Assembly (NCBI RefSeq): GCF_001428335.1
Contig: NZ_LMSG01000017.1
Span: forward strand, 62,140-126,139
Source: Arthrobacter sp. Soil762
GTDB lineage: Bacteria; Actinomycetota; Actinomycetes; Actinomycetales; Micrococcaceae
Direction: 5' to 3'
Length of the DNA: 64,000 bases
The translations under genes and the position numbers were made by a program. Shown here piece after piece: positions 36,453 through 47,377 of this stretch. Below the pieces are notes generated by a model that searched no databases, was not told the DNA's origin, and worked only from the letters and a program-made list of their open reading frames with translations. Position 1 is the stretch's first letter. Every line of letters starts with the position of its first letter.

Positions 36453-38255
36453 TCAGAAGCCCTGTTGGGCCCAGTTATCAGTGGATGAATCGACGTCGGC
36501 CGTCCGGACTGCTTCCGGTGCCGGCGGTGGCGGCGGGGGAACAACCTCTTTGCGGCCCAGCAGCCACTTGGCCGCCGTAAACGCCATCAGGGGCGCCACC
36601 TCCGCAGGGGATGCCCTGTGGTCAGGGATGGAAGCGCCGGCGCTGAAGACCTTCAGGACGGCCGTGGCCGCCGCGACGTCCAGGACCGGCTGTGGGTTGT
36701 GCCGGACGGTGCAATCCCTGACGGAGTCGTAAGTGTCCGCCCAGCCCGCAGTGAGGTCACTGCCGGACCATTCCACAACCGGGATGGTGAACTTGACGTC
36801 TTCGGCCAGGGTGACCATGAGCGGGGAGATCGGGGCGCCCTTGGACTGGCCGGCTACAGACCGAATACGGTCCCGGCGCTTGTCGTCCATCAGGTAGTCC
36901 TTGACCCAGTCCGAACCGTGACGTGCTGCCACGATCTCGACCTGAGCGACGCCGTCGGCCCGGTGTCCGGCGAACGCTACGTAGGTCATTGACCGGTCAT
37001 GGGATTGATCCAGGCCCACCACGACGTCAGTGACGATCCGGTGCTCTTCGCCCATCCGCAGGCTGCCATCTGGCAACTTCTCCGCTTCGTTCTTGCCCTT
37101 ATCCCACGAGCCAGGCGGGAACGGGCCCGTCAGAGTGCCCTCTGACCACTGGCAAAGGACCTCAGTGCGGAAAACCCACTCAGGATCGGTCCTGCAGGCC
37201 GCGGCGATGGTCCGCTCAGTGAAACCGGGGTTCCAGTTCAGCGACGGATTGGCCTGGGCCCACCCTTGCCGGTCCCGCTCGTCCATTCCTGGGGCGGTTG
37301 ACCACTCAAACAGGCCGAGAGTGTCCTCGTCCTGTTCAAATTCGGCCAGCTCGTCCTCGTCGAGCTCCTCGTCGTCGTCCGTGAGCTCGTTCAGGTCCAG
37401 CGCGGTAGGTCCGGAGGCCCCGATCTCCTCGCAGATCCCGTCAGGATCCCCGATTGCCTCGTGCGCCATCTTGCGGAGGTACCGCAGGACGATGGACGTC
37501 AGGTCGCCGGCGTTCGAAAGCGCCAGAATCAGCGCTTCAGCCTGCGCCATGGTGGTCTTGGTGATCGCACCCCAGGCTTCCCAGTTCTGATGCTCGCGCA
37601 GCTCATCGAGCATGATCAGATTCCCGGTGAAGCCACGGCCGGCGCGGCGGTTAGCGGCCTTGACCTTGTAGCGGGCCTTGGTCTTCTCAGTGGCACCGTC
37701 AGTGATCTCCAGCGCCTTCTTGCCGTTGACCTTGACCACGCGCTTGAGGATCTTGGAGAGCTCGTCGTCTTCTTCGACGAGATCGACGGCGCCCTGCCAG
37801 ACTTCCTCAGCTGTTTCGAGGTCCTGGGCGGTGCCCATGACCAGCGGCCAGCCCCAGACGATCATGAACCAGAGCGCGAGGACCTGCGAGAGCGTGCTCT
37901 TGCCGTTCTGGCGGGCGATCAGCACCACTACCGTGCGGAAGCGCAGCGTCCCGTCCGGGAGCAGCTCCAGCATCCGGCACAGGAGGACCTTCTGCCAGGG
38001 GTACAGCTTCAGGTGCAGGACGTTCTCGGCAAACTCGATGACGTCATAGCCGAGGGTCGTCTCTGGCGTCAGCGGCCGCAGCGGGGGAGTACAGATCCGC
38101 GGCTCAGCCGAGCCGTAGATCTTCTTCTTTTTCGTCCCCGTGTGAGGTGGCTCGGGAACGTGGCAGATGGAGCGGTAGTAATCACCGGGGTCTACATCAG
38201 CCGGTCCGCTCACCGGCGCGGCGTGCGGCGGCGCGAGCTTGGAGGTCGGAGACAT
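36453..38255 (-). CDS. terL: Terminase large subunit
   Basis: A 600-residue motor/nuclease. FAENVLHLKLYPWQKVLLCRML (given in short form) is the adenine-binding Q motif, ARQNGKST the Walker A, LIMLDEL the Walker B, and VVGLDQSHDRSMTY starts the RNase H-like nuclease. It packages DNA into proheads. The ATG at 38255 follows GGAGGG; the gene start overlaps TerS by 59 nt. Many short early proteins lack paralogy, but 45478-45975 carries a copy of this Q motif. Confidence 0.93.
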   Translation of the reverse strand: MSPTSKLAPPHAAPVSGPADVDPGDYYRSICHVPEPPHTGTKKKKIYGSAEPRICTPPLRPLTPETTLGYDVIEFAENVLHLKLYPWQKVLLCRMLELLPDGTLRFRTVVVLIARQNGKSTLSQVLALWFMIVWGWPLVMGTAQDLETAEEVWQGAVDLVEEDDELSKILKRVVKVNGKKALEITDGATEKTKARYKVKAANRRAGRGFTGNLIMLDELREHQNWEAWGAITKTTMAQAEALILALSNAGDLTSIVLRYLRKMAHEAIGDPDGICEEIGASGPTALDLNELTDDDEELDEDELAEFEQDEDTLGLFEWSTAPGMDERDRQGWAQANPSLNWNPGFTERTIAAACRTDPEWVFRTEVLCQWSEGTLTGPFPPGSWDKGKNEAEKLPDGSLRMGEEHRIVTDVVVGLDQSHDRSMTYVAFAGHRADGVAQVEIVAARHGSDWVKDYLMDDKRRDRIRSVAGQSKGAPISPLMVTLAEDVKFTIPVVEWSGSDLTAGWADTYDSVRDCTVRHNPQPVLDVAAATAVLKVFSAGASIPDHRASPAEVAPLMAFTAAKWLLGRKEVVPPPPPPAPEAVRTADVDSSTDNWAQQGF

Positions 38256-38871
38256 TCGAACCCTCCGGCTTCTTCTCGCCGTCGGACGGCTCAGCAGGGG
38301 CAGCTGGGGCAGCAGCGCCGGCGCCCATCGGCAGCGACGCCGGGGTGATCTGGAGGTCCGCGCAGGCCTTCAGGTAGGTGGGGACCGTCGTCGTCATGGC
38401 TTTCTGCAGGGCCGCCATGCTGTCCCGCTGCGCCTCGTCGATCATCCAGGCGAGGGTCTTGAGCGCAGCAACGGGGCCGGCGAACCGGAGCCCGTGCAGG
38501 TGCTTGGCCTCCGAAAGGGTCTGGGCGGTGGCGTCGGCCATGTAGCCGCGCTTACGGACGGGCTTCACCAGGGGTGCGAACCGATCGCCCCACGCGCGGA
38601 TCTGCTCCGCAGTGGAACGCTCGACGGCGAGCGCAGGGTGAGGGATGACGCGGCCGCGGGGATCCCTGACCACCATGCCCTCTTCCTCGACCCGCTGGCG
38701 GGCTTCGCGGAGGCGGGCCATGAGGGTGCAGAAGGTCTCCAGGGCGGAGCGGTCAACATTGCCGGCGAGGTCGTTGCTGGCGACGATCTCTCGCCACATG
38801 TTCGCTACAGCTTCGGGAAGGTGGTCCGGGGGCTCGATGGGGTCTGGTTCTGCCTGGGTGCGTGGCTTCAT
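38197..38871 (-). CDS. terS: Terminase small subunit (P27-like)
   Basis: A 224-residue P27-family protein: LPEAVANMWREIVASNDLAGNVD, then ETFCTLMARLREARQRVEEEGMVVRDPRGRVIPHPAL, a typical P27 signature with PRGRVIPHPAL. A flexible C-terminus (SDGEKKPEGSNVS) overlaps the TerL start. It selects phage DNA for packaging. It overlaps the upstream HTH gene by 4 nt. Confidence 0.88.
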   Translation of the reverse strand: MKPRTQAEPDPIEPPDHLPEAVANMWREIVASNDLAGNVDRSALETFCTLMARLREARQRVEEEGMVVRDPRGRVIPHPALAVERSTAEQIRAWGDRFAPLVKPVRKRGYMADATAQTLSEAKHLHGLRFAGPVAALKTLAWMIDEAQRDSMAALQKAMTTTVPTYLKACADLQITPASLPMGAGAAAPAAPAEPSDGEKKPEGSNVSDLQARAAARRAGERTG

Positions 38872-41352: not shown

Positions 41353-42546
41353 TTAGTTCCGTCCTCTGGTTCGGGGGCGTCCACGTCTAGGTCTCTTATT
41401 GCTATTGGGTGAGGGTTTGGAAGGTAGCGGGGGAGAGGTTGGCTCCCTTCCCGTACCTGCCCGTCCCGTCCCGTCCCGACCCGTCCCGGCAATACCGGTT
41501 CCATCAGTCAGGCGTTTCGCAGGATTGGCAATATGTTGGCAACCAGGGCCGTGCTGGTGAGTCTCTTGCTGGCCGGTGGGGCCGTCGCCAGCGATGGATG
41601 GGCCGGCGGAACCGTTGCCCTCTTGCTGGCCGGCAGGACCATCGCCAGCAGCTATCGGGCCGGATGTGCCGTTGCCCTGGGTAGTGGGGCCGGATGTGCC
41701 GTTGCCCTCTCGCTGGCCGGTCGGACCGTCGCCAGCAGTGATAGGGCCGGTGGAACCGTTGCCTTCGGGAGTGAGGCCGGATGTGCCGTTGCCCTCTTGC
41801 TGGCCGGTGGAACCGTTGCCAGTCTCGTCGCCGGGCTGCAGCTGCTTCCCGGACGGTTCGGGGACGGTCATCCCCATGCGCTTCACATATTCGTGCTCGC
41901 GCAGCCACTGGACCGTGGAAGTGCTGAAGAAGGCGTGCTCTGGTGCAGGCAGGCGCGGGTAGTCTTGGTCAGCGTTCGGGTTATCCCGTCGGCCCGAGTT
42001 GCAGCCCCGGCAGGAGACGAACAGATCCTTCTCTGAGGCTGCCTGCTTGCCAGGGATCCGGTGATCGTACGTGCCGCCCAGGCGCCCGTTCTGGGCTCCC
42101 CAGCGGACCACCTTGCCGCAGTAGCGGCAGCCGTCGCCGTCGCGCAGCCTGGCCGGGATGACCAGCTCTGGACGTGCTGTGTCGTTGCGCCTCTGCCGTT
42201 CCCAGTCGATCTCGGCTTTCGTGCGGAGGTGGATGAAGTCCGGGTCATCGAGGATCCGGTACACCTTGCGTGAGTGGCCGTCTTCCTCGAGGGATTCCTC
42301 CACCATGTAGCCGGAGAAGACTGCGAGCTGCAGTAGCTCGTTGGCGCGGGACATGCCGCCGGCCATCTGGATGGCCGTGCCCCTGTTGATGACGTAGTCC
42401 GTGAGGTGCGCGGCTGACTGGGTCGAGCAGCGCATGACGAATCCGAACAGCTCATTCACAATCCTTTCGTCGGCAAGCTGGTGTTCGAGGACGGCGAGCG
42501 CGGTGGGGTGGTTCGCTGCGGTGTCTCCCACTCTGGCCCATGGCAT
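41353..42546 (-). CDS. HNH endonuclease/replication-organiser-like protein with repeat tail
   Basis: A 397-residue protein with three parts. Residues 1-110 read as winged-helix domains (HLTDYVINRGTAIQMAGGM, VYRILDDPDFIHLR) like phage replisome organisers. Residues about 135-200 are an HNH nuclease (CRYCGKVVRW, TYDHRIPG, CRGCNSGRRD). The C-terminal about 150 residues are nearly all Gly/Thr/Ser/Gln repeats (EGNGTSG, AGDGPTGQ) ending in basic RRGRPRTRGRN. It overlaps the upstream gene by 91 nt. Confidence 0.72.
   Translation of the reverse strand: MPWARVGDTAANHPTALAVLEHQLADERIVNELFGFVMRCSTQSAAHLTDYVINRGTAIQMAGGMSRANELLQLAVFSGYMVEESLEEDGHSRKVYRILDDPDFIHLRTKAEIDWERQRRNDTARPELVIPARLRDGDGCRYCGKVVRWGAQNGRLGGTYDHRIPGKQAASEKDLFVSCRGCNSGRRDNPNADQDYPRLPAPEHAFFSTSTVQWLREHEYVKRMGMTVPEPSGKQLQPGDETGNGSTGQQEGNGTSGLTPEGNGSTGPITAGDGPTGQREGNGTSGPTTQGNGTSGPIAAGDGPAGQQEGNGSAGPSIAGDGPTGQQETHQHGPGCQHIANPAKRLTDGTGIAGTGRDGTGRAGTGREPTSPPLPSKPSPNSNKRPRRGRPRTRGRN
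41545..41840. repeat. Coding minisatellite (33-36-nt GNGTSG/AGDGPTG units)
   Basis: About nine imperfect tandem units, with the plus strand repeating GGATGTGCCGTTGCCCT and GGTCGGACCGTCGCCAGCA. They code for a flexible hydrophilic tail. A shorter GTCCC-rich array (41455-41490) encodes GTGR repeats beside it. Confidence 0.8.
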
Positions 42547-42767
42547 CTATCTGTCCGTCCTTCTGTTGTGGTTGATGTGGCTTCAGTGGGCGGCTGGCCG
42601 TGCGGCTGCAATTCGGTGGCGGCCTGAGGCATCCCGCAGCGCGGGCACTTGTGCGTTGCGTCTGGCTGGTGTGCGCCCTCGGCGATGCACTTGCGGAGCC
42701 TGCGTGTAAGGATCGCGGCGGCCAATTTGCGGCCTTCTGATTCGATCTCCGCCATGGTCTTAGTCAT
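42456..42767 (-). CDS. Hypothetical zinc-finger protein
   Basis: A 103-residue product from ATG at 42767 (GGAGGGG upstream): TKTMAEIESEGRKLAAAILTRRLRKCIAEGAHQPDATHKCPRCG in pieces, giving a C-x(17)-C-x2-C-like metal site, then a disordered tail. The last 91 nt overlap the HNH gene in another frame. The N-terminal half looks genuinely coding. Confidence 0.55.
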   Translation of the reverse strand: MTKTMAEIESEGRKLAAAILTRRLRKCIAEGAHQPDATHKCPRCGMPQAATELQPHGQPPTEATSTTTEGRTDRCHGPEWETPQRTTPPRSPSSNTSLPTKGL

Positions 42768-42917
42768 CGGGGCTCCCCTCCTTTGTGGATCACTCGGCAT
42801 GTGTGTCTCGTTTCTCGTGTTCCGTGCATCCGCATTTGCTGGCGCCATCGTCGTGAACTATGGCGGTGCAGGATTCTCGTCCGTGGTAATGACCACAGCA
42901 TTGGCAGTGCCACCTAC

Positions 42918-43691: not shown

Positions 43692-43819
43692 GGTGAGCAC
43701 CTGCACTCACCGCTGAGCGGGTGGTAGATGCCGCCGCAGGACGGGCACGGGTCCATCTTCTCCGGCTTAGACAGCAGTGAATCGTTCTTTTTCTCAAACA
43801 TCTCTGTAGGCTTCGGCAT
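43688..43819 (-). CDS. Small 43-aa zinc-ribbon protein
   Basis: ATG at 43819 overlaps the dnaN stop (TGATG) and its own stop overlaps the next ATG (ATGA). The protein (MPKPTEMFEKKNDSLLSKPE...) ends CPSCGG...CRCSP, a two-pair metal site. Translational coupling on both sides supports a real gene. Confidence 0.6.
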   Translation of the reverse strand: MPKPTEMFEKKNDSLLSKPEKMDPCPSCGGIYHPLSGECRCSP

Positions 43820-45096
43820 CAGACTCCCTCCAACGGCTGCGGCATGCGGACGGGCATGATCAGGTGCCGGTACGTGTCCTTAGTTCCGCAGGCAACGCCG
43901 CCGGCCGTCAGGCACACAGGCTTAGCCAGGCTCTCCTGGAACGACATGCGAACCTTCTCGGCGTCGATCGAGCGGAGCGCCGCGAGCAAGTACGCGGGGT
44001 TGAACGCCACAGCCTGCGTCGCGTCTTCCGGGACTGTTCCGGCGGCCACGAGTGCTGGGGTTTCGACGGCGGCGGCGGGCGCTTCGTTGAGGGCCGGGCG
44101 GATGGTGATGGTGCTGGAGGTCATGACGATGGTGGCCGGGGTGTTTCGTTCGTTGAGGTCGACGGTGACGCTCACCTGGTCGATGAGGTCTCTTCTGTCG
44201 GCTTCTATGTGGGTTGCAGCGGTATCCAGGAAGAGTGCTGCGAGCTTGGGGTATTCGCCGCCGGTCCCCATGAGCGTGTAGGTCAGATCTCCGGAGATGA
44301 GACTGAGCGCGGTCCCGCCGCCGGAGCGCCCGGGGGAGTCGGCAGAGGCGAGGACGCCCACTGTGACCTGGTCGCCGTCGAGGTGCCTACTGACGGACTT
44401 CCACACGGCGGCTTTCATGAGGAACCGGAACTCGGGGACAGGCTGCTTGGTGGCGATCCGCTCGGAAGAAAGCCGGTAGCGGTCTGTGGCCTGCATCGTG
44501 AGGTGCTTACCGGCGCCCTGGATCTCGATGGAGGTCAGAATCGGGAGCGTGTCGTCAGTGGATGCGGCCACGAGTGAGCGGTTGAGTGCCCCCACGAGTA
44601 CCTGGCGGTCCATGCGGAATCTCTCGAACGCTGCATGCTCCGGCAGCGGCGGGTACTCGGCCACGTTGTAGTGGTTCAGGATCGGGATCGTGTACCCCTC
44701 TGCACTGACCGTCAGCAGCCGCTGGCCCAGCATCTCCCGAGCCGCCAGCGTGACCGGGGCCTTGGGATTGCGGCGGGTGATGGTCCGGATCGTTCGGACC
44801 AGCCACGAGAGCGGCAGGAGCGCCTGCGCATCCTTCAACCGGCCCGACGGCTCGTGCTGGAGCTTGGCAACGGCGGACGTCTCATAGTCATACGCCGACA
44901 CCGTCGCTTTCCCCTGGCTACACTCAACGAGGACGCACGCCAGGATTGGGATAGGCGGTCGGTTCGACGCCGCGACGCCGACAGCGCGGAGCTTCCTCAG
45001 CCACTCCTCACTCGTTGCAGTCACCTCCAGATCGGCGAGCGCCGGAGCTGGTCTGGTGATGGTGGTGTCCGTTGTGGCCAGTGCCGTGATGGTCAT
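43819..45096 (-). CDS. dnaN: Phage DNA polymerase III beta clamp (DnaN-like)
   Basis: A 425-residue three-domain sliding clamp: LRAVGVAASNRPPIPILACVLVE, then ATDRYRLSSERIATKQ, and the C-terminal FNPAYLLAALRSI with YRHLIMPVRMP matching the end of bacterial beta subunits. No phage polymerase is seen, so the clamp would recruit the host replicase or other clamp users. AAAGGA precedes the ATG at 45096, inside the end of the upstream HTH gene (89-nt overlap). Confidence 0.9.
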   Translation of the reverse strand: MTITALATTDTTITRPAPALADLEVTATSEEWLRKLRAVGVAASNRPPIPILACVLVECSQGKATVSAYDYETSAVAKLQHEPSGRLKDAQALLPLSWLVRTIRTITRRNPKAPVTLAAREMLGQRLLTVSAEGYTIPILNHYNVAEYPPLPEHAAFERFRMDRQVLVGALNRSLVAASTDDTLPILTSIEIQGAGKHLTMQATDRYRLSSERIATKQPVPEFRFLMKAAVWKSVSRHLDGDQVTVGVLASADSPGRSGGGTALSLISGDLTYTLMGTGGEYPKLAALFLDTAATHIEADRRDLIDQVSVTVDLNERNTPATIVMTSSTITIRPALNEAPAAAVETPALVAAGTVPEDATQAVAFNPAYLLAALRSIDAEKVRMSFQESLAKPVCLTAGGVACGTKDTYRHLIMPVRMPQPLEGV

Positions 45097-45481
45097 TGAT
45101 GGTCCTTTCGCGGTGCTGCGGGTGGAGGAGGTTGGTGAGCTGATTGAGGCGGCGGACTTCGATGGCGTAGGCGCCTTTTTGCTGGTCGGTCCAGCCGCGG
45201 CCGGGGAAGTACTTGCTGACCGTGGATGATCCGACGCCGAGCAGTTCGGCGACGGCTACCTGGCTGTATCCCTCTTCAAGGAGCCGGTCCGCTTCGGGCA
45301 GCCACTCCTCGAGCGGTCGGAACGGTGCTTTCGGGGCGGATAGGCCGAGTGCGCGTTTGTGCCGGCTGATGGTCCGTTCGGTGACGCCCATTTCGTCGGC
45401 TATCTCGTCGAGACTCCTGCCCTCGCTGACTAGGGTGCGTAATCGCTCCCTGTCAGCCAGGCGGCCGTATTGGCGCCTCAT
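45008..45481 (-). CDS. Two-HTH DNA-binding protein
   Basis: A 157-residue protein with two helix-turn-helix units: SLDEIADEMGVTERTISRHKRALG (about 23-46) and YSQVAVAELLGVGSSTVSKYFPG (about 71-93). This resembles phage replication or partition regulators. The His-rich end (DHHGTGHNGHHHH) overlaps dnaN and may be a by-product of overlap. It is coupled to the upstream gene by ATGA. Confidence 0.7.
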   Translation of the reverse strand: MRRQYGRLADRERLRTLVSEGRSLDEIADEMGVTERTISRHKRALGLSAPKAPFRPLEEWLPEADRLLEEGYSQVAVAELLGVGSSTVSKYFPGRGWTDQQKGAYAIEVRRLNQLTNLLHPQHRERTINDHHGTGHNGHHHHQTSSGARRSGGDCNE

Positions 45482-45975
45482 TGCCCCAAGCCATTCAAGT
45501 CCGTCCCTGATTGGCGGTGCGCGCCGATAATGATCCTGCCGACCTCGAGCGCTTCCTCCCGGTCATCGAAGTAGGGCTCATCGACGATTACGTGGGCGAC
45601 GTCGTCGCGGTCCCAGCCCATGAGCTTCCAACGTCCGTCCTGCGTTTGCCGGACACCCGCCCTCGGATATCTGGCATGCCGCAGGGTGAACGGCGCATCC
45701 GGCGAGCGCCGGAGGACTTCCTTTTGCCAGGGCGTCAGCTTGAACTGCAGCACGTCCTCCGCGAAGCTGACGGCCGCATCCATGGGCGCCGGCTTCGCGA
45801 GTTCGTCGACGGTTGCCTCGTATTCGTTGAGGGCTTTGGCGTGGTCCAGGACGGCGGTCTGGGCTTTGACCCGGCCGACCCACGGACGAAAGCCACCGTC
45901 GAGGACGGCGGGGCGGTATCCGCAGACGCAGACGGGTTCGTTCTCCGGGTTTCTTCTCAGATCGTGGTTAGGCAT
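45478..45975 (-). CDS. Hypothetical protein with TerL-like Q motif
   Basis: A 165-residue protein. CVCGYRPAV lies at the start. Residues about 70-90 read FAEDVLQFKLTPWQKEVL, strikingly like the prophage's TerL (FAENVLHLKLYPWQKVLL), which binds ATP adenine there. No Walker A or B follows. The rest (DGRWKLMGWDRDDVAHVIVDEP) is alpha/beta. It may bind the same partner as TerL or be an old terminase fragment. SD spacing supports ATG 45975. Confidence 0.6.
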   Translation of the reverse strand: MPNHDLRRNPENEPVCVCGYRPAVLDGGFRPWVGRVKAQTAVLDHAKALNEYEATVDELAKPAPMDAAVSFAEDVLQFKLTPWQKEVLRRSPDAPFTLRHARYPRAGVRQTQDGRWKLMGWDRDDVAHVIVDEPYFDDREEALEVGRIIIGAHRQSGTDLNGLGQ

Positions 45976-47377
45976 CGTCATCTTCTCCCTGGTCTTCGTC
46001 TGCGGCGGTGTCGGTTGATTTGCTCTTGAGCGCGGTGAAGTGGGCCATGGCTTCGCGTTCGAAAACGGCCGGCGGGTAGTTGAAGACGTCGTTGCGGACG
46101 AGGATCCAGCGGGCTGTGCCCTCGGACTCTCGCCAGCTGTACGACGTCGGATCCCAGGTGGATGGTTTGTGCAGCTGGGATGGCTTGAGCTGCAGCTCGG
46201 CCATGAGCATCACGAGCTGCAGGGGCCGGAGCTTTGCGACGGCTTCGCGGACCTCGATGGCGCCGCCGGATCCGGAGAGGCCGTCGTACTTCTTGCCCAG
46301 GATCAGCTCGCAAGCCCGCTCATAGCCGTAGTAGGAGCCCAGCACGTTCGGGGCGATGCCCGCCTGCAGGATCTTCTCCGTAGGAGTGAGCGGCAGGCCA
46401 CCGCCGGCATCGGTCAGACAGCGCCGCAGGTGCTCATCCCATATCGCGAGGTCCTGCTCCAGGCCAGCCTCAATATCCTTCAGCTTCCGCCGCGCTTCTT
46501 TCTCTTCCTCTGTTGGGGGAGTCTTGGGCGCCTGGCTACTGTTGGCCTTCTTGTACCACTCAATCTGGCCGCTGTTCTCGTTAATGAAGGCGAACTCGCC
46601 CGCGGCGGCGTGCTCCTCGTCCGGGCGGCGGTCGGCCTGATAGTCCCGGTTGTAGTGCCCGCTGTAGGTCTGGTTCCGGTCCAGCGTCGGGATGCTCAGT
46701 TCCTTGATCAGGGTCTCCGACGCGGCCTTCGTAACTGGGGCGTCTCGCTTGGTCCTGAGCTGTTTCACCAGGCGATCCCATTCACCGACGCCGCGGTGAG
46801 GGTTCGTGGCCATCAGGATCAGCTCCTGGTATGACTCGTGGTCGTCCTTGAACTCGTCGAACGCGTCCGACTGCTCCAACGTCAGGCCGCCGGCGTCCAC
46901 TAGATGGTGAGCGACGGCCGGCAGCCCCGCGAGCCGCGAGCGCTTTCGGATGAACGACTCAGAGCGGTGGATGGCCTTCGCGACCTTCTTCACTGACATG
47001 CCTTCGCATTCCAGGATCGTCTGGATAGCCTTCGCCTCGTTGGAAGCCGTGATGCCCTCGCGGTGGGTGTTCTCCCGCAGCATCGCCTCAATCTGCAGGG
47101 GCAGAGTGTCCAGCGACGGATCCACCCAGGAGTAGAGCGTCTCGACGTTCCCGAGCTCCGCGGCTGCCCTTCTTCTATGCCCCTCGATGACGAGGAACTT
47201 TCCCGCGTCCAGGCCCTCGGTTATGGGGAACAGGCGGCATCGAATCGTGTTGCCGTTTTCGGCAATGTCGTTCGCCAGCTCGGCCAACTTCTGAGGATCC
47301 CCAAGATCAGTGCGGGGGTTATGCGGGTGCGGGACCATGTCAGCGACCGCGACCATCCGGTAATCTGCGGGGCTCAT
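45968..47377 (-). CDS. ParB/Spo0J-like nuclease-domain protein
   Basis: A 469-residue protein with an N-terminal ParB domain: MVPHPHNPRTDLGDPQKLAELANDI (in part), VIEGHRRRAAAELG for box II, and ENTHREGITASNEAKAIQTIL. An HTH follows (SVKKVAKAIHRSESFIRKRSRL). The C-terminal about 200 residues are specific to actinophages. No ParA is adjacent, so plasmid-type partition is unlikely; a CTP-binding regulator or replication role fits better. ATGA overlap with 47374. Confidence 0.83.
   Translation of the reverse strand: MSPADYRMVAVADMVPHPHNPRTDLGDPQKLAELANDIAENGNTIRCRLFPITEGLDAGKFLVIEGHRRRAAAELGNVETLYSWVDPSLDTLPLQIEAMLRENTHREGITASNEAKAIQTILECEGMSVKKVAKAIHRSESFIRKRSRLAGLPAVAHHLVDAGGLTLEQSDAFDEFKDDHESYQELILMATNPHRGVGEWDRLVKQLRTKRDAPVTKAASETLIKELSIPTLDRNQTYSGHYNRDYQADRRPDEEHAAAGEFAFINENSGQIEWYKKANSSQAPKTPPTEEEKEARRKLKDIEAGLEQDLAIWDEHLRRCLTDAGGGLPLTPTEKILQAGIAPNVLGSYYGYERACELILGKKYDGLSGSGGAIEVREAVAKLRPLQLVMLMAELQLKPSQLHKPSTWDPTSYSWRESEGTARWILVRNDVFNYPPAVFEREAMAHFTALKSKSTDTAADEDQGEDDDA

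Follow-up and report, generated by a model that had tools for sequence, protein, structure and literature searches.

The closest described counterpart of the segment considered here is the N-terminal Q-motif region of TerL, the phage packaging ATPase (phrog_9; HK97 TerL, 6z6d; T4 gp17), which it resembles in the sequence of the Q-motif helix-turn-helix and in predicted helix boundaries. The conserved glutamine of HK97 TerL, Q33, contributes to a putative adenosine pocket (PMC9410871). A possible functional analogy is offered by the packaging-redirection proteins of PICIs (E. coli satellites; PMC6739421), which are small proteins that modulate a terminase. Our search of the open-licence PMC literature found no paper on TerL Q-motif fragments outside TerL. 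As for the PICI proteins, we know of no TerL-like motif in them.

We analyzed a 165-residue protein encoded by a prophage in Arthrobacter sp. Soil762 (the window, that is, the whole stretch of DNA that was analyzed, is 64,000 nucleotides long; Table 1). Its likeness to TerL is confined to about 25 residues (approximately 68-92, in the numbering of the 167-residue form of the protein, which we use for the module throughout), and, in contrast to TerL, this module has no Walker A, Walker B, or nuclease and is embedded in an unrelated protein. Judged from its sequence, the segment is best described as a portable TerL-type Q-motif unit, consisting of two short predicted helices and an invariant W-Q turn, that has been reused and is not a terminase.

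Table 1. Positions of the module, its host protein, and related genes in the window
Feature	Coordinates	Strand	Basis and remarks
165-aa Q-module protein gene	45478..45975	minus	ORF list and translation; host protein of the TerL-like segment
TerL-type Q-motif module of the 165-aa protein	45706..45780	minus	DAAVSFAEDVLQFKLTPWQKEVLRR; HMM alignment, hhalign, AlphaFold2 secondary structure
Whole inserted stretch	45709..45816	minus	Residues ~56-91, edges +/- ~5 residues; absent in other phages' homologs (alignments)
N-terminal domain, residues 1-52	45826..45981	minus	CxCG...LDHAKALN common to homologs; predicted beta-beta-alpha, pLDDT 72-91 over most
C-terminal part, residues 93-167	45481..45705	minus	SPDAPF linker and YPRAGVRQ..DGRW.L domain; predicted beta-beta-beta-alpha (107-158)
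ParB-like protein gene	45968..47377	minus	PF17762, phrog_6218; directly upstream, start/stop overlap with the 165-aa gene
HTH DNA-binding protein gene	45008..45481	minus	HTH families; directly downstream of the 165-aa gene
DNA polymerase sliding clamp	43819..45096	minus	PF00712, phrog_947
Early HNH protein	41353..42546	minus	phrog_15463; homolog adjoins free-standing Q-module ORF in sister phages
Terminase small subunit	38197..38871	minus	PF05119
TerL of the same prophage	36453..38255	minus	phrog_9 (E 3.9e-70) and PF03354; model most like HK97 TerL 6z6d in fold
Q-motif region of TerL	37971..38051	minus	Residues 69-95, helices 69-79 and 86-95; alignment and predicted structure

Similarity of the segment to TerL

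The original prediction was that the 165-residue protein carries a near copy of the Q motif of the prophage's own TerL, and this was borne out: FAEDVLQFKLTPWQKEVL in the protein is identical at 12 of 18 residues to FAENVLHLKLYPWQKVLL in TerL, and the profile tests are clear, with the Q motif/adenine-binding region of TerL found in the protein by both HMM and hhalign. The accompanying statement that no Walker motifs follow was confirmed in the sequence, because there is no GK[ST] downstream of the module, where the next residues are those of the host protein's own linker; Walker B and the RNase H-like nuclease gave no Pfam or PHROG match, and the predicted fold of the protein has no RecA or RNase H domain. 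The protein is therefore not classed as a TerL; without P-loop, Walker B, and nuclease the module cannot be a motor, and without the P-loop it is also unlikely to bind nucleotide by itself.

The Smith-Waterman score of the protein against its own TerL is 68 (the highest of 2000 shuffles reached 64), which by itself is borderline rather than decisive because another (junk) ORF in the window scores 63. For a comparison independent of the motif, we used an HMM of the TerL Q region made from 13 TerLs gathered by full-length similarity; it scores the 165-residue protein at 22 bits (E 9e-5, among 18,781 ORFs), the free-standing ORFs next to the HNH gene in sister phages at 23-28 bits, and JanetJ gp42 at 18 bits. 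In profile-profile comparison with hhalign, the TerL-type Q-motif profile matches the module at 96.3% (E 1.6e-9) and the free-standing ORFs alone match TerL at 94.5% (E 7e-8), whereas the family of the 165-residue protein without the insert shows no similarity to TerL. The modules retrieve mostly annotated terminases in tblastn, from hosts that differ by query module; with JanetJ gp42 itself as the query there was no TerL among the matches.

A DNA pattern for FAE[DN]VL-x6-WQ occurs twice in the window and not once in 100 shuffles, and a slightly wider pattern matches only the 165-residue protein's gene and its own TerL among 395 genomes of the bacterial family. In IMG/VR the first pattern has 82 loci; 78 of the 80 classified matches are open frames with a Walker A motif 33-52 residues downstream (that is, TerL), and the other two are the 165-residue protein and one chance match. 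Because the pattern was drawn from the two peptides, these counts speak for specificity and not for independence. We consider a TerL-type origin of the segment quite probable. A further candidate, Shiba gp75, was set aside as a chance match of unrelated sequence.

The original prediction offered, as one of its readings, that a terminase N-terminal fragment had been duplicated and reused. Reuse is supported by the TerL-type profile, by the insertion described below, and by free-standing ORFs in sister phages, but copying from this prophage's own TerL is not: the motif DNA of the two genes agrees at 31 of 42 bases and at only 7 of 14 third positions, and the own TerL stands about 20th among the 94 TerLs compared with the protein, some 20 others being equal or better (many of these 20 had been picked by the motif itself). 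The third-position divergence and this rank rule out a recent duplicate.

The host protein and the inserted stretch

The ORF of the 165-residue protein extends over 45478-45981 on the minus strand and encodes 167 residues if read from an upstream ATG at 45981. The second ATG, at 45975, is the conserved start, because the homologs in Arthrobacter phages begin there, the stop of the ParB-like gene is overlapped, and a purine-rich agggagaag lies just upstream. Solely from its position, with genes for the ParB-like protein, the sliding clamp, and the HNH protein around it, we infer that the gene is early. No Pfam or PHROG family covers the protein. Its homologs, at 36-58% identity, are found in the Arthrobacter phages Nandita, Zaheer, Ryan, Cole, Popper, QuinnAvery, Gusanita, and Maja, with more in IMG/VR (L152-L156); they are placed after a ParB-like gene wherever annotation was seen, as is so in Nandita, Maja, and Gusanita, and they retain the C-terminal YPRAGV..DG.W domain and, except in Elesar gp44 and L155, the N-terminal CxCG region.

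In alignments, homologs (Nandita, Gusanita, L152, L153, and L154) are without the approximately 35 residues that bear the motif and have nothing in their place. Because exactly that segment is absent, we read it as a clean insertion of about 35 residues between the CxCG/helix domain and the C-terminal domain. In L153 and L154 the C-terminal domain is directly preceded by RSPEAPF...RHA. The corresponding residues of the window protein are therefore those of the host protein itself, and only residues 68-92 or so are TerL-like. Many close relatives, including phages whose TerL is about 78% identical to that of the window (Nandita, Cole, Ryan, and Popper), have the homologous protein without the insert, which is therefore dispensable. 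The protein has the features of the Nandita gp51-like family (N-terminal CxCG...H, C-terminal YPRA.V..DG.W, and a position after ParB), and by these marks it is assigned to that ParB-adjacent family as a member with a TerL-type insert.

In the AlphaFold2 model of the protein (mean pLDDT 70.5), an N-terminal domain of beta-beta-alpha type is followed by two short helices, a disordered link, and a C-terminal domain of beta-beta-beta-alpha type. The two helices of the module are predicted at residues 67-77 and 84-92 with a turn between them, at a pLDDT of only 51-58, and the TerL model has its helices at the equivalent residues. The best fold match of the own TerL model is HK97 TerL, and the model of the 165-residue protein found nothing below E 0.4 in a fold search of the PDB; in BFVD its sole significant match is the Elesar relative. 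A match of the protein to T7 tail tubular protein B, with E values of about 0.6-1.4, was dismissed as noise. Of the two findings that the original prediction named as counting against it, only the first applies: the similarity to TerL is restricted to the motif and the predicted fold is a different one, but other phages do have homologs, some that carry the motif and some that do not. The interpretation offered there is partly supported.

Free-standing copies, selection, and possible roles

The module is also found as free-standing ORFs of about 90 residues, in L032 (94 residues), L187, L189, JanetJ (gp42), and genome G840. It starts near residue 1-10 of these ORFs and is followed by a short hydrophobic and then a basic stretch; it is the only part that they have in common with the window protein. 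In L032, L187, and L189 the 3' end overlaps the early HNH gene by about 90 nt, the G840 ORF is a like one with the same tail, and JanetJ gp42 sits two genes upstream of the early HNH gene. The arrangement as an independent ORF beside the HNH gene is not that of the window, in which the module is fused and lies about 3 kb from the HNH gene. Eight virus records have a TerL close to that of the window; the fused form is present in two of them, the free-standing form in three, and three have neither. None has both (the records may be incomplete), and outside TerL the module occurs no more than once per record, fused or free-standing. The weak match of a free-standing ORF to phrog_9544 (E 0.13) was followed in 178 Actinomycetota genomes, where a search for this family gave no match; its control gave none either, so that this negative carries no weight.

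Several observations concern the HNH slot itself. The sister phages have the free-standing ORF in the slot that corresponds to 42456-42848 of the window, before the HNH gene, and the window has a different small protein there, with a CPRCGM motif. At the HNH gene start (L225, L226, and L227) the Q-module ORF overlaps by about 90 nt in another frame, and the tail that lies in the overlap, SSAMAEAGRRGGESP, is conserved even in G760, which has no Q module at this place.

A conserved and movable piece of TerL surface in early genes is most economically read as mimicry. Under this reading, a Q-motif unit that has entered the linker of a two-domain early protein unrelated in its other parts, or that has an ORF of its own in sister phages, would act in trans by imitating the N-terminal face of TerL. 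It would dock on a usual contact partner of TerL (the portal, TerS, the packaging HNH protein, or TerL itself), and the docking could delay or tune packaging while early replication proteins are being made. We infer this mechanism in its entirety, partner and timing included, and hold it tentatively, with the chances somewhat against it: the Q motif of TerL is at the ATP pocket and not at a documented portal or TerS interface, the module is short and modeled with low confidence, many close relatives do without the insert, and JanetJ gp42 as a tblastn query matched no TerL.

Nothing specific to packaging would be needed if an old N-terminal fragment of TerL had been captured by illegitimate recombination and then tolerated in a flexible linker, as the mosaic early regions of actinophages, the placement of the insert in a low-confidence linker of the model, and the relatives that manage without it would all allow. 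Against a tolerated remnant stands the apparent purifying selection on both the fused and the free-standing module (dN/dS about 0.25-0.3): when the window gene is compared with its relative of 80% identity, dN/dS is 0.25 for the insert, 0.30 for the Q part, and 0.11 for the C-terminal part, the most conserved portion of the protein, and between two free-standing ORFs it is 0.28 over the portion before the overlap, all of these values resting on small numbers of changes. The W-Q and the flanking hydrophobic residues are retained in every copy and the module recurs at several genomic places, and we regard an inert remnant as fairly unlikely.

Convergence, in which an amphipathic helix-turn-helix resembles the TerL Q motif by chance and has another job (for example, extending the DNA or protein binding of the host protein), we regard as unlikely. 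Only about 25 residues are common, and chance matches do occur: the same HMM gives 22-24 bits to homologous ORFs that lie in the primase/polymerase genes of the phages Lewando and DizzyRudy. These calibrators, however, surfaced in a 2.3 Gb search, whereas the 165-residue protein shares a prophage with TerL, the 395 genomes have no further match to the wider motif, and the free-standing ORFs reach 28 bits from single records of about 40 kb. The Lewando and DizzyRudy ORFs were rejected as members because the DizzyRudy match is read in another frame than the long primase/polymerase ORF, and presumably the Lewando match likewise. Their peptide is strikingly TerL-Q-like (L208:1324-1596 and L209:1351-1623 for DizzyRudy and Lewando, respectively; FAESYLGVTLLPWQ in DizzyRudy) and is probably a by-product of conserved main-frame codons.

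Avs receptors recognize the folded ATPase core of terminase. That the early position of the gene serves a decoy, occupying or desensitizing such TerL-sensing receptors before TerL appears, is very improbable, because even though a phage terminase is bound by Avs3 (the own TerL has PDB 8dgc as one of its fold matches), a 25-residue piece without a P-loop would be a poor mimic. We know of no nucleotide binding by a Q motif alone. A stand-alone adenine or nucleotide sensor, reporting the ATP level to the host protein, is hardly credible: although the TerL Q residue contributes to the adenosine pocket (PMC9410871), the 165-residue protein has no phosphate-binding loop.

If the module does act on packaging, then it would represent an undescribed class of phage-encoded TerL mimic, one easily missed on account of its length of about 25 residues and its absence from family libraries. 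It would then also offer a way into the question of how phages hold the packaging motor idle early in infection. A broader generalization, that the start of the packaging ATPase (the Q motif, in some cases together with a degenerate P-loop) has been put to use again and again in actinophages as small trans-acting TerL mimics, fused or free-standing, that time packaging or blunt TerL-sensing immunity, is possible but rather doubtful. Even if it were only a relic, the module would be a clean case of a piece of a motor that moves from one early gene to another and is kept under selection.

Comparison with other phage proteins

The hypothetical proteins Nandita gp51, Gusanita gp47, Maja gp41, and Elesar gp44 resemble the 165-residue protein in their position after ParB and in their C-terminal domain, and all but Elesar gp44 also in the N-terminal CxCG region; they differ in being without the TerL-like insert. 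JanetJ gp42 and the L032, L187, L189, and G840 ORFs have the same module but carry it free-standing, in most cases with an overlap into the beginning of the early HNH gene. Another Maja protein, gp55 (MK279899.1, 35969-36334; L203:2970-3335), encoded directly upstream of a small HNH gene, has a C-terminal ARIGKKLGIDLTPWQEQVLNVQ that resembles the N-termini of mycobacteriophage TerLs (34% over 50 residues, E about 1).

The gp46 family of Squashvirus and Gillianvirus (Microbacterium phages) is similar to the window protein in having a Q motif within a small accessory protein. It comprises proteins of about 165 residues from 43 Microbacterium phage records, encoded next to the lysin gene (L205:901-1389, which is Wilca gp46; L206; L210-L217), in which the Q motif is accompanied by a degenerate Walker A (GGKQVGRTT, GGKQSGRAT, APKGAGKVN, or MPKRAGKST); hhalign matches the family to TerL at 87.5%, from the Q motif through Walker A, and by sequence it looks like a collapsed or decayed terminase-like fragment. 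Its degenerate P-loop (GKQVGRTT, PKRAGKST), its terminal hhDE, and its other N-terminal domain set it apart from the Q-motif module that the 165-residue protein carries.
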